Source: a virus
IMG/VR virus record: IMGVR_UViG_3300033388_007160
Span: 1 to 64,000 of that record
Direction: 5' to 3' (one strand)
Length of the DNA stretch: 64,000 nt
Positions 1-58,049 of the stretch are shown here, piece after piece. Numbering within the stretch: position 1 is the stretch's first letter; each line of letters starts with the position of its first letter. The position numbers were made by a program, and so were the translations under genes. The notes below the pieces were generated by a model. The model was not told the origin of the DNA. It worked only from the letters and a program-made list of their open reading frames with translations, and made no database searches.

Positions 1-843
1 GAAGACGGCCTCGCCATCGCCCGTCTGACTCGTGCCTATCCTCAGCGCGTGCATAAAATCCCCGTGCCCATACAGCTCAACTACGATGAAGTCCGCCGGA
101 AGATTGACTCGTATCGTGAGCAAATGGACGTGGACACAACGGTTACTTACGACAGCACTTCTGCTGGCTTCCGTATGGTCGGTCAGAGTTCGCCTACCAA
201 TGTAGATACGGATTACTATCTGCCTCGACTTTATACGCCGGACGGCAAGTTTGTTGATGGCGATGTTGAGAACCTACCTGCAGACAATCCCTATCTCACC
301 GACCTTGACGACATTTATCTGGACCTGAGGCGACTGATTTGCGCCCTCAATGTGCCGCTTGAATACCTGAACATGCGCGTCGGGCAACGTAGCTTCGTGG
401 ATAAGGCTTCCGAAGAAGCCCAGGAAAGCTTTGCGTATCTTATCCGTCATGTGCAGATGGCTTATGCCCACGGCCTTCGCCAGATATTCGACCTTCAGCT
501 TCTTCTGAAGGGCATCAATCCGCTGGAGGCCAAATATGAGGTGATGTTCCCCGTGGTCAGCCCGATAGCAACCAAGCGGTCGGCACAGGTTGACGCCATC
601 CGTGCAAATGTGGCTATGGTCTGGGCCAAACTTGGCATACCCGCTGAAGTGATTGGCCGGTCTGCCCTCCATCTCAGCCGTGACGACCTAGAAAGGTGGC
701 TCCAAGCCACAGGTGGCAAAATCTCCACCGAAGGCCTGGAGAAGTGGATAGACTACGCTTTAATGCAACTCAAACCCGATGAAGAAGAGGAGGGCGAGAA
801 GGAATATGAGCCTGCTGGAGCGGATACAGCAGCTACACGATGA
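1..843 (+). CDS. Portal protein, T4 gp20 type (5' end cut off by the window)
   Basis: The frame is open from base 1, so the GTG at 49 is not a real start and the N-terminal part lies to the left. The visible ~280 residues look like the C-terminal half of a T4-type portal: a 'RLTRAYPQR' segment, 'DVENLPA' before a long helix, then 'ALNVPLEYLN'. This protein forms the dodecameric ring at the packaging vertex of the head. A Glu-rich tail precedes the stop. It overlaps the ligase gene that follows. Terminase genes would be expected just upstream. Fairly sure of the family from these motifs and from the prohead protease/capsid ORF downstream. Confidence 0.85.
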   Translation, partial: EDGLAIARLTRAYPQRVHKIPVPIQLNYDEVRRKIDSYREQMDVDTTVTYDSTSAGFRMVGQSSPTNVDTDYYLPRLYTPDGKFVDGDVENLPADNPYLTDLDDIYLDLRRLICALNVPLEYLNMRVGQRSFVDKASEEAQESFAYLIRHVQMAYAHGLRQIFDLQLLLKGINPLEAKYEVMFPVVSPIATKRSAQVDAIRANVAMVWAKLGIPAEVIGRSALHLSRDDLERWLQATGGKISTEGLEKWIDYALMQLKPDEEEEGEKEYEPAGADTAATR

Positions 844-3800
844 AGCCCATGAGAAGCAGGATAAAGAGTTGCATGAGCTTGCCCGGCTGCTCATGGACAT
901 CTTTGACTTGGGCCACATAAGTATTGACGAACTGGACGAGCAGCCGGATGACCTGTGGCATAAATTTCCTCTGGCTGTGTCCGTCGCCAAGCAGGCTGTC
1001 CTTCAAATCGGTTCTTCCGTCAAACGCACAGACTATCACGATATAGACCTTCTCGTCCGCAGTGAAGGGGCCTGGGAACTGCTGGACGCCGTATCAGGCA
1101 AACTTGAACAGGTTCTCGGTGCTCCTATCCATCTGGTGCATGATGAATCTGGCCCGCATGGAGACTATGTGCCTGTTTATGATGTTGTGCTAATCCGGCG
1201 GCCTGAAAGGCAGCTTATCCACCCCGATGGCGTCGTCAGGCCGGGGGAATTCGTCAGAATTGGCCCATGGCGTCGCGTAGGGACATTCAAATTCCCCGTG
1301 GTGGCCCAGCATCTTATCCGTGGTGAACGTTACCAGATTCACAAGATTGGCGAAAAAATCATTGTCTTCAATAACGAAGGTGAAGTGATAGAAGATGACC
1401 TCTCGGTAAGCAACTTCGCCCTGGCCTTCTGGCGCATGGATGAACCTCAGGTTGCCGTCTGGGAAGGCGTATGGGACGGGGAAAACTTCTGGATTTGTGA
1501 ACTTCTTTACCATGAGGACGCCCAGGCCTGGAACATGCCTCTCCAGCATCGCCTTGCCCTGATGCAAAAATATGACTACCCCGAACCGGTGAGAGTCGTG
1601 CCCTATGAAATCATCCTGACGCCTGATGATTTGCTTGAACTTGAAGAAGGCACCTATGTCATCAAATGGCGCTATGAGCGTATAGACCTGCAGCGGCCCT
1701 TCTGGTTCGTATATGAAGCCCAGGCCATTAAGCCGGGGCAGTTCTTCAAGCTACTGAAGCCAGGTGCTTCCTATCATGGCCGTGAGTTTTTCTCTATTGA
1801 TGAGATTTGGGAATTCTGGGCCAAGCGCTTCATTGAAGAAGGCCATAAAATTTACTGCCAAGCCAAGATCGATGGTACGCACTGCGAGGGACATGTTTGG
1901 GCTGGCGGCGAGCAAGTTCGTATCTTCACAGAAGACCGTGCCCGTGACCGCAGCCAGTATCTCGGTCAGCTTGTTAAAGCGATGAAGCAATGGTGCGAAG
2001 ACGCTGACGTAGATAGCATCGTTTTTGACGGCGAAATCGTTTGGTATAAGAATGGCAAGGTCATTCCTCGCAAAGACATGGCTGCTATCTGGGGCGGTAA
2101 GCGAGATTTGAGCAATGAAGACATTCGCTGGTTCATCTTTGACCTTGTTTATGTAGACGGCGAAGACATACACGAGCAGCCCTATCAAGAACGGTTTAAG
2201 CGCCTCAAGGAACTTTTCAGCAAGGCCAGCGCAGAGGTTAAGAAGCGACTCATTCTCATCCCCAATCGTGTGGCCGATAGCAAGGAGACCTTCTATAAAC
2301 ACTGGGATTGGGCCTCCTCTTTCTCGTTCAGCGAGGGCATGGTGTGCAAGCTTGATACGATGACTTACGAGTTGGACGGCGGCACTGTCTACATGGCGAA
2401 GTGCAAAACTCGAAAAGAAATCCACACTTTAGTCATAGGCCGCCGCAGAATTGCTGGAAAAGACAACACGTATCAGTATCGCTGTGCCTTGAAAGCACCC
2501 GGTGGCTACCAAGCTATTGAAGCCGAGCGCAAAGTCACCGACAAAGACCTCGAAACAGAAAATGAATGGGAGATGGCTCCTAGTTGGCCGAGGCGTGAGA
2601 AGGGTGAATATGCATATGGTTCAACTTATGCTGTGGAAATGGAACGTCCGGCCAAGCTTGGCGAAATCATCTCTGTCATGGTTGACAATATAAATGTCTG
2701 GGAAGGTGATGATGGCAAGGAACACATCTCTTGGGAAAAGCCGCGAGTGATGAACATCCAACCCGAAGAGAAAGAACCCGACTCTGTGGAGTTCGCTAAG
2801 AAGCTGGCTAAGTACGGCACAAGGAAGGCCGAGGAAGTTGAATCGGCTCCTGCTGATTCAGATGAACAAGCAACAGTTGGCGAGGCTGTAGAGGTAATTG
2901 ACAAAGAAATCCCACCGGAGAGAGGCAAGGATGATGAAGGTGGCGAGGGCGGCGATGATGATGTGCTTTCGCGCTTCTGGTTTGAGATAGACGGCCAGGA
3001 AGTTGAACAGGACGACGAGCCCAACAAGTTCTGCTATCAGCATCATGTTCGGGGCATCATGATGCCCGATACGGTTAAGCGTGTGCAGAAGATACTTTTG
3101 CAGGGTGGCGAGGAGGCCGAGAAGGTCTGGAAGGAATTTGGCCTGGCAACGTTGACTATCCCTGTGGAAGAGCTCAAGCAGAAGGTTCGGGCTGCCAAAC
3201 CTGGCGAAGTCAGCAGTATCATCAATCAGGCTCTTGACAAGAAATTCCCCGGCGAGATTGAAGTGGCCGACCTTAAGCGTATAGTGCAGCGCGGTAATTG
3301 TCACGGCGATTTGCGCATCGAGGCCCCGCCCAAGCGTGAATTTCTGCTGGGCATCACGCAGGCTGTGGTGGGCAGTGCATTACAGTTCATGGACGATCCG
3401 AAGCATATAGAAGAACTTGGCGAAGAGAAGTTTATCGAGGGAGCCGAACAATGGCCTGCTGCCCTCAAATACTTCCAGCCCTATGGCTGGCTTACGCTGG
3501 TTGACTGGGGCGAATATGAATGGTCGCCGCCTGGTGATGTGGGGGCTACGAAAAACACGGCTGCCGTCTTCTACCTCGTGGACAGAGGCCAGGCCATCCT
3601 TGGCGTCCAGAAGCACGACTTCCATGAAGTGTTCTTGATATTCGAGAGGAACAAGAAATTGAGTGGCCGTTATATCTGGACGAAGGTCAACCTGCAGGGG
3701 CAGTGGACATGGCTTGGCCGTCGGCCCAGAGATCAGACGCCCTACATCCTCACGCACAATAAAGAAAAGGAAGAAGAAAAGGCCAAGCAGGAACATGGCT

Positions 3801-3925
3801 GGATAGTCTGGAATCCACTGGCCTGCGAAGCCCTTGCCAAGACCAAGCTCAAGAACCTGCTGCCCGTCAACTGGGAAGACAAAGTTGAACCCTTCTTCGA
3901 CGAACCAAGGGTGGACTTTAGCTAA
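806..3925 (+). CDS. Nucleotidyltransferase - ATP-dependent DNA ligase - phosphoesterase-like fusion
   Basis: Three parts are visible (residues counted from an alternative ATG at 779). (1) A Pol-beta-type nucleotidyltransferase-like domain with 'GSS' at ~78 and 'DID' at ~88-90, and Asp ~135. (2) An ATP-dependent DNA ligase: 'AKIDG' (motif I, Lys ~363), 'DGE' ~417, 'EGMVCK' ~519 and 'KCK' ~541. (3) After an acidic linker, a C-terminal part with 'HH' ~755, 'HGDLRIE' ~842-848 and a 'KLSGRYIW' segment, which resembles the 3'-phosphoesterase domain of bacterial LigD. It probably seals or repairs phage DNA ends. The ATG at 806 is preferred because 'AGGAGGGCGAGAAGGA' precedes it; 779 lacks a ribosome site. 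It overlaps the portal stop. The ligase call is firm; the two flanking domains are inferred. Confidence 0.85.
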   Translation: MSLLERIQQLHDEAHEKQDKELHELARLLMDIFDLGHISIDELDEQPDDLWHKFPLAVSVAKQAVLQIGSSVKRTDYHDIDLLVRSEGAWELLDAVSGKLEQVLGAPIHLVHDESGPHGDYVPVYDVVLIRRPERQLIHPDGVVRPGEFVRIGPWRRVGTFKFPVVAQHLIRGERYQIHKIGEKIIVFNNEGEVIEDDLSVSNFALAFWRMDEPQVAVWEGVWDGENFWICELLYHEDAQAWNMPLQHRLALMQKYDYPEPVRVVPYEIILTPDDLLELEEGTYVIKWRYERIDLQRPFWFVYEAQAIKPGQFFKLLKPGASYHGREFFSIDEIWEFWAKRFIEEGHKIYCQAKIDGTHCEGHVWAGGEQVRIFTEDRARDRSQYLGQLVKAMKQWCEDADVDSIVFDGEIVWYKNGKVIPRKDMAAIWGGKRDLSNEDIRWFIFDLVYVDGEDIHEQPYQERFKRLKELFSKASAEVKKRLILIPNRVADSKETFYKHWDWASSFSFSEGMVCKLDTMTYELDGGTVYMAKCKTRKEIHTLVIGRRRIAGKDNTYQYRCALKAPGGYQAIEAERKVTDKDLETENEWEMAPSWPRREKGEYAYGSTYAVEMERPAKLGEIISVMVDNINVWEGDDGKEHISWEKPRVMNIQPEEKEPDSVEFAKKLAKYGTRKAEEVESAPADSDEQATVGEAVEVIDKEIPPERGKDDEGGEGGDDDVLSRFWFEIDGQEVEQDDEPNKFCYQHHVRGIMMPDTVKRVQKILLQGGEEAEKVWKEFGLATLTIPVEELKQKVRAAKPGEVSSIINQALDKKFPGEIEVADLKRIVQRGNCHGDLRIEAPPKREFLLGITQAVVGSALQFMDDPKHIEELGEEKFIEGAEQWPAALKYFQPYGWLTLVDWGEYEWSPPGDVGATKNTAAVFYLVDRGQAILGVQKHDFHEVFLIFERNKKLSGRYIWTKVNLQGQWTWLGRRPRDQTPYILTHNKEKEEEKAKQEHGWIVWNPLACEALAKTKLKNLLPVNWEDKVEPFFDEPRVDFS

Positions 3926-3976: not shown

Positions 3977-4330
3977 ATGCGGCTTAAGATTTATTTGGCG
4001 CTCGTCATCGGGGCTTTCCTGTGGGCCCTCGGTTCGGTTTGGGCTACAACGGAGAAGGTCTGTGGTGTTTGGGGCGTCATAGCTTATGGCATAGTGGCAG
4101 CAGCATGGCTTGCCATGGTGCTTGTGGCGCTTCACAAGGCAGGCTTGCCTTATCCGGTGGACATGAAATACGTCAATATTGCCTATGCGGTGCTAAGCGT
4201 GCTGACGTTCGGCGTGGCTTTTGTTGTCATACTTTTGACTTATGGTGACACGGCTGCTGTGCTCTGGGCCGGTATGGCCTCAGTAGGCTTGCTTGGCATG
4301 GCATACGAATGGTCGAGGGGGCGAGCATAA
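3977..4330 (+). CDS. Small membrane protein, about four membrane segments
   Basis: 117 residues, mostly hydrophobic, with about four membrane-spanning stretches (roughly residues 3-23, 30-52, 64-88 and 92-110) and short basic ends. Ribosome site GAGGAGGCGATAAGGA lies before the ATG. It sits between the ligase and the capsid ORF, a few bases ahead of a 62-aa gene. No family is recognised; a role in lysis or membrane association is possible but not shown. Confidence 0.6.
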   Translation: MRLKIYLALVIGAFLWALGSVWATTEKVCGVWGVIAYGIVAAAWLAMVLVALHKAGLPYPVDMKYVNIAYAVLSVLTFGVAFVVILLTYGDTAAVLWAGMASVGLLGMAYEWSRGRA

Positions 4331-4523: not shown

Positions 4524-7487
4524 ATGAAATACGCTGAGATTACACCACAAAACGTTGCCAAAGCGCCGGATGAAGAACTGCGCAGCATTCACCGGCGTTT
4601 GCATAGCTGGTGGGTTAACCTGAAGTGTGAACGTGACATGGCGAACAAAAGTGAACATATGACTTGCCGTGGGATACTTGACAGGCATTTGCTTGTTGTG
4701 AAAGAATTTCTCAAGCGAGGCATTAAGCATAATGAGGTGGATGCGTTGGATACCATGACAAACAGGCTGCTGCGCAAAGAAGAACAGGATGCCGATGGCC
4801 GGTGTGGGACAGGCCAAGGGGCTGGTAAGCCCAAGAAGGGCGATGGCGGCGTGGAGTATTGCGTCTGTCCCAATTGTGGTTATAAAATGAAACATGAACG
4901 GGGCACGCCATGCAATCAATTCAAGTGCCCGGAGTGTGGTACACCGATGCAGGGAGCAGATGAAGCGGCCAAGAAAGATTACGGCAAGAAGACTGATTAT
5001 GGCAAGCTGAAGGGTAAGTGCCCATATGCAGGCGACCCTGAGAAATGCCCGGCGGCTGCCAAGGGTTACGGCTATCCGCCCAAGAAAGGCGAGGGGCCGC
5101 CTGAGGCAGCCAAGAACTGTAAGTATGCCAAGGAATATAAGTGCCCGTATTTCGGCAAGTATTACGGATACAAGAAAAAGTCCAAGGATGCATGGGTGCC
5201 TTCTGACCTTCAATCTCTTGCCCAAGCATTGCTGAAAGCGGGCACCTACGAAGAGTGCGAAAGCATAGCTATCCAGGCCCAGCAGCTTGAAGTGCCCGAA
5301 GAGTTTGAGGACTTCCGCAGGCTTATTATCGCTGAGGCCGAAGAGAAGGCACAGATATTCAAGTCCGACAATCGCGTTGAGCTTATTGACTCGTTTGAGG
5401 GGCAGGTTCTTGAGCTGCAGGAAGCCGATGAAGGCCGGGTTCGGTTTAAGGCCATCGTCGGCCAAGTCAATAAGGTCAACAAGAACAATCGGCTCTATCC
5501 GAAGAAGGAAATCGTCAGGAACCTGCCTCGCGTAAACGAGCTTATCAAGGCAGGGAAGTTTGTCGGTTTGGCTGACCATCCAAGCTTGTTCAGCAGTGGT
5601 TCAGTCCTTGACATTGCTGTAAAATTTACAGCGGCAGGCCTGAGGGGCAATAACATTGTTGTTGAAGGCGAAGTCGTGCCCACGCAGGCCGGTAAGGAAG
5701 TTGTCACATTGTGGAAGCATGGCGTTAACACAGAATGGTCGCTGCGTGGGTATGGCGAACTCCGGCCTGCCAAGGATAAAGACGGCAAAGATTTGGGCTA
5801 TGAAGTTGTAGAGAATTATGTGTGGGATGCAGTTGACATAGTATTGCGAGGTGCCGCAGAGACTCAGACTTTGAAAGTTGAATTTGAGCACGAAGACCAC
5901 CAGACTGAAAACTCTATACAAGAAGCGAGCCGGGGTGGAGACCCCGGCGGTGAGGCGATGGCTGAAGAGAAGGTTGTTGAACAGGCCGAACAGGCACAGG
6001 CTCAAGAGCAGGCTCAGGAACAGGCTACCCAGCCTGAGCCCCAGATAAACGTTGATGAAATCGCCAAGCAGCTTGAAGAGAAGGTTGCTGCCAAGGCCAC
6101 TGAGGTTGTGGACGCGGCCCTGAAGGCTGCGGAACTGGCGGCCTACAAGCGGCAGCGCATTGAGGCCGAACTGAAAGACCTTGAAGAGAACGTGTGTGCG
6201 CCTATCGTGCAGGCCGTCGAACGGGCATCCTCGAAGGAAGAAGTTGACAAGGTCTTCGAGGAATTCAAGCCGCTTGTTGAGAAGGTGCTTCTGGCGAAGA
6301 AGGTTGAGTATGCCGGTGTGGGCATCATCACCGAGGAGCGCCGGAAGCGCCACTATCGCGACCTGTGGGTGCATCCGGCCACGGGCGAAATCGCTGAACG
6401 GCCTGAAACGGTGGCCGAAGTCAAGGCCGCCCTGCTTGAAGGCCTCGAAGGCCGTACGCGCAAAGTCTTCGAGGATGTCCTTGCGAACTATGAGGAGAAC
6501 TACCCCGAATATCTGGAGGCCTGCACGAAGCACCGCGTGATGGAAGCGGCCACGACAACGACGGCGCTTGGTGTGACGCTGCCGCAGATTCTGCCGCTGA
6601 CCCGCCAGTTCTTCCCGAACCTGATACCATTTGAGATTGCGTCGGTGCAGCCACTGAAGGGCCCGACGGGTCGCGTCTACCATCTGGCGTTCAAGAAGGC
6701 AGGCGGTGGTGACTTGGCCGACAGCTCGTCCTTTGACAGCACTTGGGCCGACCATACGGAAGGCGATTCGAAATCCCAGATTACGCTGCAGTTCAGCTAC
6801 ACCGACGTTGAAGCCGAAGAGAAGGCCATCTACTTCCACGTCACCGAACAGCTCGTGCAGGACATGAAGGCGCTCTATAATCTGGACGCCGAGAAGGAAC
6901 TGCTGCAGGCGGCTTCCGATGAGATTGCCCGCGAGGTCAACTACCAGTTCCTTGAACTGCTGCGTGCCAATGCCACGGCAGGTTCCGAGAACTATGGCAC
7001 CAAGCGGCCCAGCGGCTACACGTCCGACCTCGAATGGTATCGGATGCTGGTGGCGTTCATCCAGAAGGTGTCGGCCAAGATTGGTGCGAAGGTCAACCAT
7101 GAAGGCAACTGGATTGTAGCCGATCCGAACAGCATTAACATCCTCGCTGCTGTGGACGCCCTGCAGGGTGCCCAGCCCGAACGCAACTACGGCACGGGCC
7201 TGGTCCGGTTGGGTGTCATCCGTGGCTTCACGGTCTACCAGGCACAGTGGTTCCAGCCCAACACCATCCTCGTGGGCTTCAAGCCGCCGAGCTGGCAGTA
7301 CGCGGGTGCCGTGTATGCGCCATATGTGCCGCTCTACATCGGCCAGACTGAGATTGACGCCGAGACGAACACCCGCAAGCGGTCGGTGTCCAGCAGGGCG
7401 GCCATGGCGGTGCTGAACGGCAACGCATACGGCATCGTGAACGTCCAGTTCGGCACCACGGGCACGCCGCCATTCGACAGCGCCTAG
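4524..7487 (+). CDS. Zinc ribbon - prohead protease - scaffold - major capsid protein polyprotein
   Basis: One uninterrupted 987-residue frame covers functions that are separate genes in T4. Residues ~115-138 hold two CxxC pairs (zinc ribbon); a Cys/Lys/Gly/Tyr-rich stretch follows. Residues ~308-412 match the T4 gp21-type protease: 'NNRLYP' ~321, 'ADHP' with candidate catalytic His ~352, and 'WSLRGYGEL' with candidate Ser ~406. Residues ~480-670 are Glu/Gln/Ala-rich, like a scaffold. From about Met673 the sequence is gp23-like: 'FPNLI', 'KGPTGRVYH', 'NWIVADPN', 'VYAPYVPLYIG'. The protease would be expected to cleave scaffold from capsid protein during head maturation. An in-frame ATG at 5958 may also yield scaffold plus capsid alone. 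A terminator follows. Confidence 0.88.
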   Translation: MKYAEITPQNVAKAPDEELRSIHRRLHSWWVNLKCERDMANKSEHMTCRGILDRHLLVVKEFLKRGIKHNEVDALDTMTNRLLRKEEQDADGRCGTGQGAGKPKKGDGGVEYCVCPNCGYKMKHERGTPCNQFKCPECGTPMQGADEAAKKDYGKKTDYGKLKGKCPYAGDPEKCPAAAKGYGYPPKKGEGPPEAAKNCKYAKEYKCPYFGKYYGYKKKSKDAWVPSDLQSLAQALLKAGTYEECESIAIQAQQLEVPEEFEDFRRLIIAEAEEKAQIFKSDNRVELIDSFEGQVLELQEADEGRVRFKAIVGQVNKVNKNNRLYPKKEIVRNLPRVNELIKAGKFVGLADHPSLFSSGSVLDIAVKFTAAGLRGNNIVVEGEVVPTQAGKEVVTLWKHGVNTEWSLRGYGELRPAKDKDGKDLGYEVVENYVWDAVDIVLRGAAETQTLKVEFEHEDHQTENSIQEASRGGDPGGEAMAEEKVVEQAEQAQAQEQAQEQATQPEPQINVDEIAKQLEEKVAAKATEVVDAALKAAELAAYKRQRIEAELKDLEENVCAPIVQAVERASSKEEVDKVFEEFKPLVEKVLLAKKVEYAGVGIITEERRKRHYRDLWVHPATGEIAERPETVAEVKAALLEGLEGRTRKVFEDVLANYEENYPEYLEACTKHRVMEAATTTTALGVTLPQILPLTRQFFPNLIPFEIASVQPLKGPTGRVYHLAFKKAGGGDLADSSSFDSTWADHTEGDSKSQITLQFSYTDVEAEEKAIYFHVTEQLVQDMKALYNLDAEKELLQAASDEIAREVNYQFLELLRANATAGSENYGTKRPSGYTSDLEWYRMLVAFIQKVSAKIGAKVNHEGNWIVADPNSINILAAVDALQGAQPERNYGTGLVRLGVIRGFTVYQAQWFQPNTILVGFKPPSWQYAGAVYAPYVPLYIGQTEIDAETNTRKRSVSSRAAMAVLNGNAYGIVNVQFGTTGTPPFDSA
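5930..5960 (+). promoter_or_regulatory. Hairpin and possible internal translation start in the capsid ORF
   Basis: CCGGGGT (5930-5936) and ACCCCGG (5941-5947) form a perfect 7-bp stem with loop GGAG. Eleven bases after it comes an in-frame ATG (5958) with GGTGAGG just ahead. The start would give a ~509-residue scaffold-capsid product. It sits exactly at the protease/scaffold boundary, so internal initiation is plausible. Inference only. Confidence 0.4.
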
Positions 7488-7508
7488 TAGCTTAACAGCG
7501 TAACTCGG

Positions 7509-7546
7509 ACCGGGGGCCGTCGGGATGACGGCTCCCGGTTTATTTT
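7509..7546 (+). terminator. Intrinsic terminator after the capsid gene
   Basis: A 13-bp stem (7509-7521 with 7527-7539, one G-T wobble) with loop GGGAT is followed by TTTATTTT. It lies 20 bases after the capsid stop codon and would end the head transcript or lower expression of the genes beyond it. Confidence 0.88.
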
Positions 7547-7599
7547 GTCATGCAAATGGGTAGACTACGAGTGATGGCAGAGAGAAAGGAGTGTCCCCG

Positions 7600-7995
7600 A
7601 TGGCTGTGCTGGCTGTATCATTGATATGCTTGTGGGCCGAGGTTCCTGCTACGGGTGCTGCGCAAGAGTTCTATTACATGTGCGCCAAGCCTGCTACTGA
7701 GTTGTATGGGATAATAACAGCCCCGCCTGAACCGGCTAAATTGGCCAAGGCTTTTGAGTTCGTTCGGGCAGGCTTGCAATGCGTTGAAAAGGCTTGGCGA
7801 GCTGCCCACCGAAGCAATGACTATCAAGAGTTTCTGGCCGCTCTGTATGTACATCGAGGTTATGAGGCTCTGGTCTGGTATTATCTGGCCTGCTGCTGGG
7901 CAAAACAGGGCAATCAAGACATGGCCTTCCAATTCTGGCAGGTCAGTTCACTGCTCTGGAAACAGGCACAGGATATTTATCAACCTATCAAGTAA
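7600..7995 (+). CDS. Unknown protein with a signal-like N-terminus
   Basis: 131 residues. The first ~22 residues are hydrophobic ('MAVLAVSLICLWAEVPATGA'), resembling a signal peptide or an anchor; the rest is helical with several Cys and Trp. The ATG at 7600 is favoured over the GTG at 7591 because AAGGAG sits 8 bases before it. First gene after the terminator. Not recognised. Confidence 0.5.
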   Translation: MAVLAVSLICLWAEVPATGAAQEFYYMCAKPATELYGIITAPPEPAKLAKAFEFVRAGLQCVEKAWRAAHRSNDYQEFLAALYVHRGYEALVWYYLACCWAKQGNQDMAFQFWQVSSLLWKQAQDIYQPIK

Positions 7996-8022
7996 AGACC
8001 ACATAAAGGGGTTGTACTTGCC

Positions 8023-8724
8023 GTGCCTGCTAAGATTGGAGCAATTGACTTCATCAACATAAACGACCCATTCGAGGGTGGCAAACGCATTCAGCTTCCT
8101 TTGAGAACTATAAGCGCTGTTGACAAAGAGCTCTTTTCACATTTTTCTGCAGAGGAACGTGCTTCATTGATTGCCGAAGCAGCTTGGGACGCTGCAGCCC
8201 GTGATGCACCTCTCGCCGTTTGCGACTATATATATTCGAGGCACCCCAACATAGTCCGAAAAGTAGATGAATGCCGCAATCTTATTGCTGCGCAAGCACA
8301 ACATCTTCGTGGAAATCAGATTGCTAAACATGTCTTAGAACATTATGTCGGAAGTTTGGCAGATCTGTTAAATTGGACGGCAAAGCATATCACCTGCGGA
8401 GAACCACCCTTTGACATTGAAGCATTTATAGCCTTCGCACGCGAAACTTGTCACTACATCCAAGGTTTAATAGCGAATATCGAGCATGAGCTCGCTTGTT
8501 TTGAAGCTCATGAACCTCGTTCTCGCAGAGAAGAACTACAAGCAACAAAACGTCTGCTGACAAGAATGCTTGGCGAAGTCAATCGTGCTGCGACGATTTA
8601 TCTTAGGATTGCCAAGAGCATTAACGAGTTAATCCAGCAGATTTTGCCTCAAATCTATAGCCGGGTTTATATGGAGCTTAGGCACATTTGCGAAGAGACA
8701 ACAGAGGAGGAGCTTGCCCAATGA
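8023..8724 (+). CDS. Hypothetical helical protein
   Basis: 233 residues, probable GTG start with a GGGG-containing ribosome site upstream. The protein is largely helical with no signal peptide and no motif I recognise. Its stop overlaps the start of the next gene (ATGA), so it belongs to an operon of unknown genes running to about 10.6 kb, between head and neck genes. Confidence 0.55.
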   Translation: MPAKIGAIDFININDPFEGGKRIQLPLRTISAVDKELFSHFSAEERASLIAEAAWDAAARDAPLAVCDYIYSRHPNIVRKVDECRNLIAAQAQHLRGNQIAKHVLEHYVGSLADLLNWTAKHITCGEPPFDIEAFIAFARETCHYIQGLIANIEHELACFEAHEPRSRREELQATKRLLTRMLGEVNRAATIYLRIAKSINELIQQILPQIYSRVYMELRHICEETTEEELAQ

Positions 8725-9215
8725 TTCAACCAGAGATAGTTGTGCAGAAGCTCGTGGCAGTGGTCTGTGGGCTGGAGTTCTATGGTGCCCCGGCCCGCAG
8801 ATTTTGCACGATGATGGCCGAGTTTATCCCCACACTGGTGCGGCATTGCTCAAAGAAGGAAATCGCCGTTCGTGTTAGCGTCAACGCCTCATACGGTTGG
8901 GGCGAAGGAGATGAAGCTTGTGTCAAGGTTTGGTTCCCAGACATTCTTTTGCATGTGCTGCTATATTATCATCCCTTTGAAGGCGGGATAGAAACGGCAT
9001 CCTTTGCCTTTACTTTCGACCCGTATGATGGGCCGGTTGAGGCGATGTATACTTTCTATGTGCATGGGCGGCCCGGTGTTTATTATCGCCATGAGAACAG
9101 CTTAGGCATCCTTCGCGAACGCATCAGTGAGGATAACAAGCCATTGTTTGAGCGGGCTATTCGATGTCTCTTTGAAGTTCTAATGTCAACACCTGCAGAC
9201 GGGAGGTTGGCCTGA
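8721..9215 (+). CDS. Hypothetical protein, possible paralogue of its neighbour
   Basis: 164 residues, starting at the ATG of an ATGA overlap and preceded by AGAGGAGGAG. An N-terminal helix and Cys-Gly segment ('AVVCGLEFYG') resembles 'KIACGRKFWP' at the same place in the next gene; both then continue with strand-rich sequence. No function recognised. The paralogy is an eyeball inference. Confidence 0.55.
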   Translation: MIQPEIVVQKLVAVVCGLEFYGAPARRFCTMMAEFIPTLVRHCSKKEIAVRVSVNASYGWGEGDEACVKVWFPDILLHVLLYYHPFEGGIETASFAFTFDPYDGPVEAMYTFYVHGRPGVYYRHENSLGILRERISEDNKPLFERAIRCLFEVLMSTPADGRLA

Positions 9216-9793
9216 TGGTTCCTGAAACCCGCCTTATCGAAATTGCCAATGATATAGTGAAGATAGCCTGTGGCCGGAAGTTCTGGCCTGACAATTGGTC
9301 TTCGGTTACATCGGCCAAGCTGGCCAAGCGAATGATTTCACTGGTCACCAGCTCGTATTCGAATGACCCAGCATCGGCCCATCATCCTGCCCACCCGTCA
9401 TTTGAGCCAATCGCCTTTAGTTGCGATGTGGATAATAAGGCAATTGATGATGAATTGGTTCTTGCCTTCCCGGCACTACATATGGCTCTTACATTCTTTT
9501 GCAGCAATGCAGGACTAAATGATTTGCTAATTGACTTTGCGCCGTATCCGCACTCCGCCTCGACACTTGATGGTTCATCATTCTTCTACATTGATTTTGA
9601 AGATGGGCAGGTTATCAATTATTTTGAGCAGAATGCTATTCCTGACCATGTGCTTAGCCTCTATACGTTGGTGTTGCCTCCGAAGAAGGGCAAGTTCATC
9701 GAGATAATCAGATACTGCTGTAAGTTAACAGGAGATGAGCGCTTGAAAGAGGGCTATGAGCGTATCATCAAGTTCGGCGACATCGGAAGCTGA
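9215..9793 (+). CDS. Hypothetical protein, possible paralogue of its neighbour
   Basis: 192 residues; the ATG overlaps the preceding stop (TGATG), with GGGAGG just upstream. Its N-terminus resembles that of the preceding gene and its middle is rich in aromatic and acidic residues ('FFYIDFEDGQ'). The 3' end overlaps the nuclease-like gene. Function unknown. Confidence 0.55.
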   Translation: MVPETRLIEIANDIVKIACGRKFWPDNWSSVTSAKLAKRMISLVTSSYSNDPASAHHPAHPSFEPIAFSCDVDNKAIDDELVLAFPALHMALTFFCSNAGLNDLLIDFAPYPHSASTLDGSSFFYIDFEDGQVINYFEQNAIPDHVLSLYTLVLPPKKGKFIEIIRYCCKLTGDERLKEGYERIIKFGDIGS

Positions 9794-41199: not shown

Positions 41200-43380
41200 A
41201 TGGCTGCTACTGATAGTGTCTTTGAGCAGATAAAAGCCCGCATAAACCTCATTGAAGTCATCGGCCAAGAAGTTGAACTCAAGCGCGTCGGCAAATACTG
41301 GATGGGCCTTTGCCCCTTTCATTACGAAACAGAACCCAGCTTTGCCGTAACAGAGAACTTCTATTATTGCTTCGGCGCCACCTGTAACGCAAAGGGAGAC
41401 ATATTCACGTGGCTGATGGTTCGCAGGGGCCTCAGCTTTTCTGAGGCAGTCCGGGAAGCAGCCCGCCTCGCTGGTATCCCATTAGACGATAACTGGCAGG
41501 AACGCCTCAAAAAAGCCCAGGAACATCAGGCCAAACTGGAAGCCTACGTCAAGCAAAGCCAGGAATACCTCTGGTCAAAAAAGGGCCAAACGGCCCTGGA
41601 TTACCTTCGCAATGAACGCAGGCTTACAGACGAGACAATCAAGCAGTTTGGCCTCGGCTATGATAGCAAACGCGACGCCATAGTCATCCCGCTGATGGAC
41701 ATGTCTGGCAGGCTGGTTGCCTATGCTCTCCGCCTTCTAAATAGCACCAAACGCTATCAAGTCTTCAATCAACCCTTCTTCCAGCGTCGTCGTTATTTGT
41801 TCAATGAGCAAGTTTTGTGGCAGCACAAAGACCAGCCTCTCTACCTCTGCGAAGGTTATTTTGATTGCATGAGTATCGTGCAGGCGGGCTATCCGAGGGT
41901 TGTGGCTCTTTGTGGCGGCCAGCTCAATGATTATCAGCTCAAGAAGCTCACCCAAGCTGCCCGCCAAATCATCCTAGTGCCCGACAACAAATCAGCAACG
42001 GACTGGAAACTGGCTCGCCGCAATATAGACCTCATTCGCCGTTTTGATGCCGAAGTAAAGGTGCTTGTTGCTGTGCCGGAAGGCGATGCCAATGATACCG
42101 ACCCCGACAGGCTCAAGGAAATCCTTGCATCGCCCAATGAACCCGAAGTTGCCATGCTGGACTTCATCGTTTCCGGCACCCAGGCCGAACAATACGAAAA
42201 GGCCCGGCAACTTCTCCAGACGATACACAATCCCCTGCTTCGTGATGATATTATCCAAGAATTAGCCAAGCGTTGGGGTAAAAGCACGCACCTGGTTAAG
42301 CAGGCTTTGAGTGGCCGGGCTGTCTCGGTGAATGTAGTTAAAAGCGAACATACAGTCACCATCCTTCGGCACATGGCTGCCGAGATAGCCCAAGAACACG
42401 AAATCAACCTCCGCTGGCCGGGTTTTGAACCAGAAGTCCTTCAACGTATCCACGCCGGTCATCTTATAGGCATAGCAGCCCGCACTAATGTGGGTAAGAC
42501 ACTGTATGCCCTCAACCTGGCACCTTGGTCACGTGGCCTTTACAGCCAGGTTTTCTTCACCCTTGAACAGCCCTACAGTGAAATCGCCTACCGCATGGCA
42601 CGAATCACTCTGGGACATGTCATACCGCATATGTATCCCTATCTGGATGCGGCCATCCGGAAGGCCGAGGATGAGTTCAAGGACTTCAACATTTTGAACG
42701 AAGAAGTTTTTGGTCGTAACCTTCAGCCTCTCATCACAACGTTGTATTCGGATTTCTATGTAGTGGAAGGCGTTTTTGACGTGGAAGGCCTGAAGGGGGC
42801 CATCGCTAAGCTTGCCGAAGAAGTCAGGCTGCCCGTCCGCATAGTCTGGATAGACTACCTCGGCCTGATGCGGGCCAAAGGTGACACCGAATACGTCCAG
42901 CTCAGCAACCTCATCCGCGACCTCGCACGCCTGGCAAAGGAGCTTAACCTTTTAATAATATTCCTGCACCAGCTTAGCCGCCGGGGTGGCACTGGCAAGG
43001 AGCACGTGGAAATTGACATGCTTCGCGGTAGCGGCCAGATTGAAGAAGCCGTTGACCTTCTGCTGGGCCTTTACCGACCCCAGCTTAACGATGAATACCA
43101 GCAGAACAATCAGGTCTGCACCGAGGAGCCTTTCTACGTGGACGTTATCAAGAACCGCCACGGCCCCAAGCAACGGCTTAAGCTCACCTTCTACAAGCGC
43201 AGCCTGCTAATCACGTCGGTTCATCCCTTGCATGGCCCCGAGGTTTTGCGCAGCGAGATAATGGATATACTGGAAACGAAAGGAGCTGATAGCCATGACG
43301 CAGGAGCAATTGAGCGAGGCGGCGGAGAATGTGGAGGCCATCCGGCAGGAACTGGACAATCTGGCGAAGAGGTATTTTGA
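41200..43380 (+). CDS. Primase-helicase (DnaG-type primase fused to DnaB-type helicase)
   Basis: 726 residues. N-terminal CHC2 zinc site ('CPFHYETEPSF' ~38, 'CFGATC' ~57). TOPRIM region: 'LCEGYFDCMSIVQAG' ~218 and 'VPDNKSATDW' ~263, where the usual DxD is DNK. Helicase: Walker A 'GIAARTNVGKT' ~425, Walker B 'IVWIDYLGLM' ~548, sensor 'LLIIFLHQLSRRGG' ~583. It primes and unwinds at the phage fork. The 3' end overlaps the next gene by 86 bases and its last ~25 residues (Gly-rich) are probably unstructured. Confidence 0.9.
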   Translation: MAATDSVFEQIKARINLIEVIGQEVELKRVGKYWMGLCPFHYETEPSFAVTENFYYCFGATCNAKGDIFTWLMVRRGLSFSEAVREAARLAGIPLDDNWQERLKKAQEHQAKLEAYVKQSQEYLWSKKGQTALDYLRNERRLTDETIKQFGLGYDSKRDAIVIPLMDMSGRLVAYALRLLNSTKRYQVFNQPFFQRRRYLFNEQVLWQHKDQPLYLCEGYFDCMSIVQAGYPRVVALCGGQLNDYQLKKLTQAARQIILVPDNKSATDWKLARRNIDLIRRFDAEVKVLVAVPEGDANDTDPDRLKEILASPNEPEVAMLDFIVSGTQAEQYEKARQLLQTIHNPLLRDDIIQELAKRWGKSTHLVKQALSGRAVSVNVVKSEHTVTILRHMAAEIAQEHEINLRWPGFEPEVLQRIHAGHLIGIAARTNVGKTLYALNLAPWSRGLYSQVFFTLEQPYSEIAYRMARITLGHVIPHMYPYLDAAIRKAEDEFKDFNILNEEVFGRNLQPLITTLYSDFYVVEGVFDVEGLKGAIAKLAEEVRLPVRIVWIDYLGLMRAKGDTEYVQLSNLIRDLARLAKELNLLIIFLHQLSRRGGTGKEHVEIDMLRGSGQIEEAVDLLLGLYRPQLNDEYQQNNQVCTEEPFYVDVIKNRHGPKQRLKLTFYKRSLLITSVHPLHGPEVLRSEIMDILETKGADSHDAGAIERGGGECGGHPAGTGQSGEEVF

Positions 43381-56386: not shown

Positions 56387-56974
56387 ATGAAGCTAAGTGA
56401 TTGGGCCAAGCAGCAAGGCATCAGTTATCGCACGGCATGGAGATGGTTTAGGCAAGGACGCTTGCCGTGTAGGGCTGAGCAGATGCCTTCGGGGACCATA
56501 TTGGTCTATCCCGATGAGGAAACACAAACAGATGAAGCTGTAGTGATTTATGCTCGTGTTTCGTCCAGCAACCAGCGTGGAGACTTGCAGCGGCAGGTTG
56601 AACGGCTTGTGACTTACGCCAATGCTCGCGGCTGGAGAATTGCGGATATTGTCACAGAGATAGGTTCGGGCCTCAACGGTCGCCGGAAGAAGCTGTTGAA
56701 GCTGTTGGCCGACCCCAATGTTCGCCATATCCTCGTAGAACACCGAGACCGCTTGGCCCGTTTCGGTGTTGAGTTTATAGAGGCAGCGTTGTCTGCCAGT
56801 GGCCGCAAGCTTACGGTGGTAGATGAAACAGAATTCAAAGACGACTTATGGCAGGACTTTGTGGATTTGGTTACCAGCATGGCGGTCCGCATATATGGCC
56901 GTCGAGGCGCACGAAACCGTGCGCAACGTGCTTTAGAGGCCCTGAGGCACGGCGATGACAATCTTAAGGAGTAG
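56387..56974 (+). CDS. IS607-family serine recombinase (TnpA)
   Basis: 195 residues. N-terminal MerR-like helix-turn-helix ('WAKQQGISYRTAWRWFRQG') followed by a serine-recombinase domain 'VVIYARVSSSNQRGDLQRQ' with the catalytic Ser (~58), and 'LVEHRDRLARFGVEFIEA'. Length fits IS607 TnpA. It moves the element with no target duplication. Overlaps tnpB by 20 bases, with a possible regulatory hairpin upstream. Confidence 0.92.
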   Translation: MKLSDWAKQQGISYRTAWRWFRQGRLPCRAEQMPSGTILVYPDEETQTDEAVVIYARVSSSNQRGDLQRQVERLVTYANARGWRIADIVTEIGSGLNGRRKKLLKLLADPNVRHILVEHRDRLARFGVEFIEAALSASGRKLTVVDETEFKDDLWQDFVDLVTSMAVRIYGRRGARNRAQRALEALRHGDDNLKE

Positions 56975-58049
56975 CAAGCTTAGCTTCAAAGAAGCAACGG
57001 AAGCCAAGCTGGCTATCCTGCAGAAGATAGCTGAAGATTACCGTCGTGCCGTTAACTGGTTCATAGACTGGTATTGGCAACACGGCCTCCGCCGCTTTCC
57101 TGAAACCGAAGTAGTCAATGCCTGTCCTGTGGATTGGTTCACTCATCGCATGAAGAAGGTGGCTGCACAGCAGGCCCTTGGTATAGTCCGCGTTGCCTGC
57201 AAGCGAGGCCGGAAAACAAAGCCTGAATATAAGCAGCTTAAGATACAAGCTCAATGCACCATTGCGCGGTTGCGGCAACCCAAAGAGGCCGAGAGCTTTG
57301 ATTACTGGCTTGAGCTGCGGTGCATAGGCAACAAATTACGCTTGGACTTGCCCCTGAAAGCCAACAAACATTTCAACCGCTTCGTAGCTGAAGGCTGGAA
57401 ACAGCATAGTGGACTGCTTATTGATGTAAAGCGACGCACTGTGACGGTAGTATTCGAGAAGGATGAGAAACCTGCAGATGATACGTCACACCCCGTTGCT
57501 GTAGACATCGGGGCAAGTTCATGTCTATTTGCCTGTGCCGACTTTGCCCACGCTGGCTGTCTTGGTCTGCAGATTGGCGACCTTCTACAAAAGGTTGCGC
57601 GGAAACAACATGGCTCCAAGCGCCAGAAGAAAGCTCGACGCCGGTTGAGGCATTACATTGATGAACAAGTCAAGAACCTGCTCAAAGCTTTTCAACCTAG
57701 CTGCGTCGTGGCCGAAAGATTGCATAACGTGCTGCAGCGAACCAAACAAGACCGTAAGCTAAATAAAGCAGTTCGCTGCCTCCTCGGTGGTTGGTGCTAC
57801 CGTTACGCGCTGGAGCGGTTGCGCATGACATGCGAAGTCAACCGTGTTGGCTTCCATGTCGTGCCGCCGCAGTATACCAGCCAGCGGTGCCCAGCCTGCG
57901 GCCACATCGAGGAGTCGAACCGCCGAGGCAGGATGTTTCGCTGTCGGCAATGTGGGTATATTGACCATGCCGACTTAGTGGCCGCCAGAAACATCCTGTG
58001 GCGGTTCACTGAGGAGATTACCGTCCCTCAGGCGGCGGAAGCCGGTTGA
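56955..58049 (+). CDS. TnpB RNA-guided nuclease of the IS607-type element
   Basis: 364 residues, standard size. RuvC-like sites: 'VAVDIGASS' (Asp ~182), 'CVVAERLHN' (Glu ~254) and 'IDHADLVAARNIL' (Asp ~340). Four-Cys zinc finger: 'CPACGHIEES' and 'FRCRQCGYID'. All three catalytic acids look intact, so it may be active. TnpB usually uses a guide RNA encoded at the element's right end. Starts inside the end of tnpA. Confidence 0.93.
   Translation: MTILRSSKLSFKEATEAKLAILQKIAEDYRRAVNWFIDWYWQHGLRRFPETEVVNACPVDWFTHRMKKVAAQQALGIVRVACKRGRKTKPEYKQLKIQAQCTIARLRQPKEAESFDYWLELRCIGNKLRLDLPLKANKHFNRFVAEGWKQHSGLLIDVKRRTVTVVFEKDEKPADDTSHPVAVDIGASSCLFACADFAHAGCLGLQIGDLLQKVARKQHGSKRQKKARRRLRHYIDEQVKNLLKAFQPSCVVAERLHNVLQRTKQDRKLNKAVRCLLGGWCYRYALERLRMTCEVNRVGFHVVPPQYTSQRCPACGHIEESNRRGRMFRCRQCGYIDHADLVAARNILWRFTEEITVPQAAEAG

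Follow-up and report, generated by a model that had tools for sequence, protein, structure and literature searches.

The window, i.e. the whole 64,000-nucleotide stretch of viral DNA analysed here, starts within a set of head genes, and a gene for a large fusion protein lies among them. The record it comes from is circular, 86 kb long, with an exact 114-base terminal repeat, and is probably the genome of a bacterial phage. The portal gene runs over the record end: its N-terminal part is found at ~85246-86019 of the record and continues across the end in the same frame and sequence. The features are as follows.

49..843, + strand: T4-gp20-like portal protein, C-terminal part (PF07230, E=1.2e-10)
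806..3925, + strand: NTase-ligase-phosphoesterase fusion protein, 1039 aa, open reading frame (alternative start at 779)
983..1285, + strand: NTase-like domain of the Pol-beta superfamily, residues ~60-160, with the motif GSS...HDID and the third acidic position in VYD
1289..1570, + strand: putative degenerate second ligase domain, residues ~162-255, with LIRG for KxDG (motif-I lysine replaced)
1841..2407, + strand: ATP-dependent DNA ligase adenylation core, residues 346-534 (PF01068, E=1.3e-18, above the cut-off)
2408..2785, + strand: OB-fold-like region completing the ligase, residues ~535-660 (beta-rich in the model; ~390-400 columns aligned to ligase cores by Foldseek)
2831..3010, + strand: acidic low-complexity linker, residues ~676-735, seen in the sequence
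3023..3775, + strand: divergent LigD-type 3'-phosphoesterase (PE) domain, residues ~740-990 (structure match and profiles)
3044..3046, + strand: His747, equivalent of the metal ligand His42 of LigD
3302..3316, + strand: HGDLR, with His833, Asp835 and Arg837 equivalent to LigD His48, Asp50 and Arg52
3476..3490, + strand: Gln891 and Trp895, replacing LigD His84 and Tyr88
3623..3631, + strand: HE(V)F motif with His940-Glu941, specific to this family and lacking in cellular LigD PE
3977..4330, + strand: small hydrophobic protein, 117 aa, open reading frame between the fusion and the protease-capsid genes
4524..7487, + strand: fusion of a Zn-ribbon, S77 prohead protease and Gp23 major capsid protein, 987 aa (PF07068 1.6e-35, PF03420 2.3e-6, phrog_138, phrog_207)

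The ATG at 806 is preceded by a purine-rich AGGAGG-like stretch, and the start of the fusion gene overlaps the portal stop. The 117-residue protein matched no family and is likely a membrane protein. An earlier note on this DNA had placed the fusion between portal and capsid genes and outside any replication module. Both statements hold, as the S77 protease and Gp23 capsid follow downstream and the replication genes are far away, with a DnaG-DnaB fusion at 41200-43380. The fusion gene encodes the sole ligase of the complete 86-kb genome; its protein is not recognised by PHROGs, and in this copy the protease is not fused to it. A defence-system reading was rejected: PADLOC has no match for the window protein and only methylase models for one relative, L021.

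The ligase is the clearest part of the protein, and a search of solved structures with the full-length sequence gives matches to this part only. Motifs I (KIDG, K354), III (DGE, E410), IV (SEG, E510-G511) and V (KCK, K532) are intact, in agreement with the earlier description of a ligase with its main motifs. The best matches of the core are DNA ligases, which the structure model also matches at 1e-16 (Foldseek). The top NCBI family is an NHEJ ligase model, the score against TIGR02779 is 1.6e-16, below the trusted cut-off, and Pfam recognises no replicative N-terminal DNA-binding domain. Across the relatives the catalytic residues are nearly invariant (K354 in 46/46, E410 in 46/49, E510 in 48/49, K532 in 48/48), which argues against a dead structural relic.

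Upstream of the core, residues ~162-255 may form a second, lysine-less ligase domain, for which the sequence and the predicted model are suggestive only. Aligned by hhalign, the ligase core and residues 150-306 give E=6.5e-4 with a probability of 27.6% (five control segments, 0.36-0.66), and the strand order in the model resembles that of the core; the corresponding part of relative L006 gives no support for such a repeat. The N-terminus had been described as NTase-like, and a Pol-beta-type NTase is weakly supported. The window and about 35 relatives carry the motif G[GS]..D(h)D, the predicted fold is of low confidence, and family matches are weak and confined to relatives (PF01909 at 0.0066, PF22014 at 5e-4). 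The third acidic residue is kept in the window and replaced in most relatives, and pair alignment of the N-terminus against solved structures found no credible NTase.

The AlphaFold model of the PE domain has a pLDDT of 86 and a pTM of 0.80. Its only matches among solved structures at E<1e-3 are 3p43 (4.5e-5, TMt 0.68) and 3p4h (2.3e-4, TMt 0.72), both archaeal LigD-type 3'-phosphoesterases matched with probability 1.00, and the sole significant viral structure match is A0A516LT18. Viral and cellular PE profiles align with a probability of 96.8% by hhalign (reversed control 0.5%), and the top match of the PE profile in the PDB by hmmsearch is 3p43 (0.0093). Pfam gives no direct match for the window's PE, the PE of L020 matches PF13298 (2.2e-7, 31.4 bits against a cut-off of 31.1), and the PE of relatives matches TIGR02777 at 4e-9, below the cut-off.

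The proposed likeness of the C-terminus to the LigD PE is therefore borne out for the fold, HGDLRIE and the upstream QHH, and fails at two active-site positions. Among the 54 viral members the equivalents of H42 (50/54), H48 (52/54), D50 (52/54) and R52 (50/54) are kept, with an insertion of ~75 residues between the His42 and His48 equivalents. His84 is replaced by Gln or Glu in 51 of the 54 and Tyr88 by Trp in 53. HExF is found in 46/54 members, and its His, Glu and Phe are invariant in the PE alignment. Catalysis by P. aeruginosa LigD requires both His84 and Tyr88 (PMC8656161); the healing of 3' ends may thus be changed or absent here, and we class the domain as a divergent relative and not as a canonical LigD PE. 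Judged from these residues, its chemistry may differ from that of LigD.

The 54 viral members, each with its locus, were collected by pattern search with the PE domain, while pattern searches with the whole protein or the ligase alone found no relatives. The same placement among head genes recurs in more than 50 further viruses, all uncultured, that infect bacteria or archaea, and nearly all of the 54 loci lie among portal, head-protease or capsid genes. The virus lineages that share this setting are unrelated. The portals are of three types (PF07230, PF06381, PF04860), the head proteases are S77, S78 or S78_2, and the capsids are Gp23 and several HK97-like families; one portal cluster representative has no match in the PDB, and its cluster aligns with a PF04860 portal cluster (97%). 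Ligase and PE are paired in at least 51/54 loci, two of the three exceptions being contig ends, and share one ORF in 29 loci and are otherwise encoded by neighbouring genes. The first downstream gene of at least 200 aa belongs to a head-protease cluster in 28/54, a capsid cluster lies at most six genes away in 30/54, and the flanking genes are on the same strand in 52/54. Many relatives have other genes between portal and ligase, and the PE and the head protease are the more regular neighbours. In five relatives (L005, L008, L025, L063, L073) the prohead protease XkdF is the C-terminal domain of the protein itself.

Additional domains in the relatives are largely of nucleic-acid type. L007 has a PNK3P/HAD phosphatase and a 2H phosphoesterase beside the ligase, and others have an RNase-Z-like metallo-beta-lactamase or a Dam-type methylase. 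G013 and G015 encode a second ligase of ordinary length elsewhere (547 and 582 aa), so the head ligase is an extra one there. Ku (PF02735) was not found in 17 virus records, incomplete ones included, and no AEP polymerase is matched by Pfam in the window protein; hence this is not a complete NHEJ set.

We propose that the fusion is an end-healing-and-sealing polyprotein of the head module, located in or at the procapsid and probably ejected with the genome, and give this reading a probability of roughly 0.5. What we observe is the sequence, the fold, the conserved motifs, the place of the gene and, in five relatives, the fusion to the protease; catalysis, encapsidation, ejection and target are inferred. 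The protein would be made together with the portal, head protease and capsid, be taken into or onto the procapsid along with the protease and most likely accompany the genome into the new host. The ligase core would seal nicks or ends with ATP after the PE has readied 3' ends blocked by a 3'-phosphate or ribonucleotide, and the NTase-like domain may fill in or add nucleotides. In the new host, incoming DNA ends would be repaired or joined, or shielded from host nucleases. Precedents are effectors fused to MuF or portal proteins and packaged in heads (PMC5512222), the heads of SPN3US with their ejection proteins and processing by the prohead protease (PMC7411985), and NHEJ-type recircularisation by phage Corndog (PMC4351075).

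The enzyme could instead act at packaging, as the earlier note had it; possibly attached to the portal, it would mend nicks and damaged ends in the DNA entering the head. The gene directly follows the portal gene in both the window and ANMV-1, in overlapping or near-adjacent frames, which favours this reading; we nevertheless regard it as unlikely, given the spacing between portal and ligase in many relatives. Adjacency to the prohead protease, together with the five fusions, points to a component in or at the procapsid more than to a packaging role, and such a component could work on the DNA while it is still in the head or once it has been ejected. It is also improbable that this is an ordinary replicative or repair ligase, placed in a late operon by chance, with PE and NTase as accessories, and working in the cytoplasm during replication. 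Recurrence of the head-operon position in about 50 loci with unrelated portals and capsids speaks against it, as do the protease fusions, the additional ligases of G013 and G015 and the core without a recognised replicative DNA-binding domain, even though viral gene order is mosaic and the window's genome has no other ligase.

It is quite unlikely that the protein is an effector for counter-defence or RNA repair that travels with the genome and serves to reseal RNA cut by the host (e.g. tRNA) or to break down signalling nucleotides. The LigD PE works on DNA 3' ends (PMC8656161), and the core is closest to DNA ligases, with an NHEJ model on top and an OB-type region. These facts outweigh the 2H and PNK3P-like domains of L007, the RNase-Z-like domain in others and the frequency of such domains in polyvalent and MuF-fused proteins (PMC5512222). 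Least probable, and in our view very unlikely, is a catalytically spent scaffold, its domains now serving as a structural protein inside the head: the PE has lost His84/Tyr88, one ligase repeat and the PE2 domains are degenerate and most relatives have lost the third acid of the NTase, but near-invariant ligase motifs and the PE metal triad are kept across very divergent members.

Returning to the procapsid polyprotein, its recurrent placement suggests a kit for repairing DNA ends, carried by these viruses in or at the capsid. A bolder form, which we offer as a tentative possibility, is that widespread, undescribed tailed viruses of bacteria and archaea build into the capsid an end-joining machine that resembles LigD and works without Ku. 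It would be made beside or within a prohead protease polyprotein, freed by proteolysis and ejected with the DNA, and would heal and seal genome ends or host-inflicted breaks on entry, with a PE site rebuilt around HExF. Literature searches found no description of the fusion reported here, and to our knowledge there are hardly any accounts of prokaryotic viruses whose virions carry DNA end repair. A conserved head module of ligase and LigD-type PE would offer an explanation, open to testing, for the repair or circularisation of injected linear genomes. The module also reveals a branch of LigD PEs whose active site has changed and an unusual fusion to the protease, and it would help to annotate a family that PHROGs misses in the window copy. 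Host NHEJ is rare in archaea (PMC7719229), and several family members are archaeal.

Compared with bacterial LigD, the window protein likewise joins LIG and PE in one polypeptide, with an ATP-dependent DNA ligase core that has no replicative DNA-binding domain and a PE with the same fold and Gln40, His42, His48, Asp50 and Arg52. In contrast to LigD, it has neither an AEP polymerase domain nor Ku, its PE has HExF and insertions in place of His84/Tyr88, it adds a Pol-beta-like NTase and the putative pseudo-ligase, and it sits in a head operon; some genuine LigDs also lack one domain (PMC8656161). The archaeal stand-alone enzymes 3p43 and 3p4h differ in being cellular, small and single-domain, with His84/Tyr88 kept.

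The only carrier among 50,697 phage records is ANMV-1, whose protein AJP62006.1 ('ATP-dependent DNA ligase', KP703175.1) also has NTase, ligase and PE parts. An overall MAFFT alignment with the window protein misplaces the termini, and domain slices were compared instead. ANMV-1 is an archaeal (ANME) virus with another portal family, and its protein has no pseudo-ligase and a second, degenerate PE; second PE domains (PE2) are degenerate. The main text of the ANMV-1 genome paper mentions neither the fusion nor its setting (PMC4372165).

As a multi-enzyme protein encoded in the head module, the fusion resembles the polyvalent and MuF/portal-fused proteins surveyed by Iyer et al. 2017 (PMC5512222), which are likewise large and modular, belong to the head module of portal-terminase viruses and are thought to be injected. 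The passages found in that survey hold no DNA ligase with a LigD PE and no XkdF. Its 2H domains never occur with RNA ligases, whereas L007 combines a ligase with 2H, and it lists few such proteins in archaea, while several members of the present family are archaeal.

'DNA methyltransferase/prohead protease' proteins of Rhizobium phages also fuse a DNA-acting enzyme to an XkdF-type protease, the enzyme being a methylase and not a ligase or PE. The host ligase for mycobacteriophage Corndog is reportedly LigD, a finding attributed to Pitcher et al. 2006. Corndog recircularises its genome on infection by NHEJ-type joining but encodes Ku, depends on the host ligase and has no head-operon ligase-PE fusion (PMC4351075).

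The fusion gene of the window is an open reading frame within the head genes; its surroundings, and one replication gene, are as follows.

49-843: T4-like portal (PF07230), its 3' end overlapped by the fusion gene
806-3925, plus strand: fusion gene, single 1039-aa product, alternative in-frame ATG at 779
directly after the fusion gene, before the protease-capsid gene: small hydrophobic protein
4524-7487: zinc ribbons, S77 prohead protease and Gp23-type capsid in a single 987-aa polyprotein
41200-43380: bacterial-type replication protein, a fusion of a DnaG-type primase with a DnaB-type helicase

The record is 86,019 bases long. Since its first 114 bases recur exactly as the last 114 and the portal reading frame continues across the ends, the genome maps as a circle, in the order small-terminase candidate (by position), large terminase, portal, fusion protein, protease-capsid. 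Two replication proteins, the DnaG-DnaB fusion and a beta clamp of DNA polymerase III, indicate a bacterial host. The genome also encodes a TROVE/Ro60-type protein with a vWA domain (L003:10641-12164 in a further stretch, record ~74641-76164, minus strand) and a protein with a TnpB/Cas12f-like C-terminal domain (PF07282, window 56955-58049).

The C-terminal domain of the fusion protein is a LigD-type 3'-phosphoesterase (PE) by fold and metal site, as modelled, with a non-canonical active site and putative chemistry. A model built from a 29-sequence alignment (pLDDT 86, pTM 0.80) was compared with 350,542 PDB chains, and only 3p43 and 3p4h, archaeal members of the LigD 3'-phosphoesterase superfamily, obtained E<1e-3. 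Independent sequence evidence agrees with this match: the family PE profile ranks 3p43 first in an hmmsearch of the PDB, relatives match TIGR02777 and PF13298 (one just over the cut-off), and the viral and cellular profiles align with a probability of 96.8%, against 0.5% for the reversed viral profile. The residues of 54 viral PEs were compared with ten cellular archaeal PEs. In LigD numbering, His42 is kept in 50/54 of the viral domains, His48 and Asp50 in 52/54 each, and Arg52 in 50/54. However, the His84 position holds Gln in 29, Glu in 22 and His in one, and the Tyr88 position holds Trp in 53 and never Tyr; P. aeruginosa LigD activity requires both residues (PMC8656161). The window protein has Q891 and W895 here. 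The viral family carries instead the motif QKPxFHEYF, with HExF in 46/54, and H940-E941 of the window protein lie inside HExF.

Residues 346-534 are certainly the ligase core (PF01068, E=1.3e-18). The predicted model of this part matches DNA ligases at 1e-16. Of the NCBI families, the core scores best with TIGR02779, a model for NHEJ ligases, at 1.6e-16, which falls short of the trusted cut-off. The N-terminal domain carries the GS(S)...D-h-D motif typical of the Pol-beta NTase superfamily; family matches are weak and come from relatives only, and its predicted model is poor. Between these parts, a stretch aligns to the core around motif I with LIRG replacing KxDG (E=6.5e-4; control segments 0.36-0.66) and is, judged from sequence, probably a dead ligase repeat.

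A search of 50,697 phage records gave a single relative, in the archaeal (ANME) virus ANMV-1. This protein is likewise NTase-ligase-PE and its gene lies immediately after the portal; the main text of the ANMV-1 genome paper does not mention the ligase. Scanning IMG/VR and GTDB contigs extended the family to 54 loci (redundancy not removed), some of them on contigs from the Guaymas Basin that had been binned as Archaeoglobales and Thermoprotei. A ligase is paired with the PE in 51/54, two of the three exceptions being contig ends; they form a single ORF in 29 loci and adjoining genes in the remaining pairs. The catalytic residues of the ligase hardly vary (K354 46/46, E410 46/49, E510 48/49, K532 48/48).

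The adjoining head genes belong to several unrelated types: portals of PF07230, PF06381, PF04860 and PHROG families, proteases of S77, S78, S78_2 and PHROG head-maturation families, and capsids. An annotated head-cluster gene is present in 45/54 loci, where the protease (c0) and portal (c7) clusters were assigned by profile comparison with annotated clusters. Nine loci lack one; in five of these (the window, ANMV-1, L006, L071, L072) head or packaging genes are annotated directly, and four have neither. The first downstream gene of at least 200 aa belongs to a head-protease cluster in 28/54. Five proteins (L005, L008, L025, L063, L073) have the XkdF prohead protease as their own C-terminal domain, which is gene-fusion evidence tying the repair module to head assembly.

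A plain replicative ligase would fit the window phage, in whose genome we found no ligase besides the fusion protein. However, the head setting is conserved across the family, and two related records (G013, G015) have a second, ordinary-length ligase elsewhere, so that we disfavour this role. Most likely, the fusion protein would enter or dock on the procapsid together with the protease, be freed at maturation, and heal and seal DNA ends or nicks, in the head or after ejection; encapsidation, catalysis and target are all predicted. Precedents support the proposal: MuF- and portal-fused enzymes are proposed to be packaged and injected (PMC5512222), SPN3US heads combine ejection proteins with prohead-protease processing (PMC7411985), and Corndog uses NHEJ-type recircularisation (PMC4351075). 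Ku was not found in the 17 virus records searched, many of them fragmentary.

The components are of known kinds. A literature search found no description of the combination, of how widely it occurs in uncultured viruses or of the altered PE active site. The protein has LigD-like parts; we group it with head-module multi-enzyme proteins, not with LigD.

Additional domains are swapped in and out between members.

L007: PNK3P/HAD phosphatase and 2H phosphoesterase
L005:5916-9131 (130-kb virus, separate ligase gene elsewhere): ferritin-like domain fused with PE and XkdF prohead protease
L009, L012, L015, L018, L023, L029: RNase-Z-like metallo-beta-lactamase
L021: Dam-type methylase
L026: zinc finger

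In a related group of six loci (L021, L024, L027, L031, L033, L035) two successive genes encode the ligase, dividing it about halfway through the adenylation domain, and the second runs on into the PE (e.g. L021:5323-7071, with the methylase, and 7068-9254); this is possibly a natural split ligase. Pfam inteins are found in L015:1954-6522, within the ligase domain, and L029:2409-7493, N-terminal beside the metallo-beta-lactamase part; in L034:1239-5966 about 330 residues interrupt the ligase at the same site as in L015. In ANMV-1 (L002:3200-5800) and several relatives, such as L007:3996-8894 and L008:5512-8574, the PE is followed by a second PE-like repeat, which is degenerate. The ANMV-1 gene after the ligase (L002:5868-9368) encodes a very cysteine-rich 1166-aa protein with, by eye, a MuF-like C/H motif at its end.
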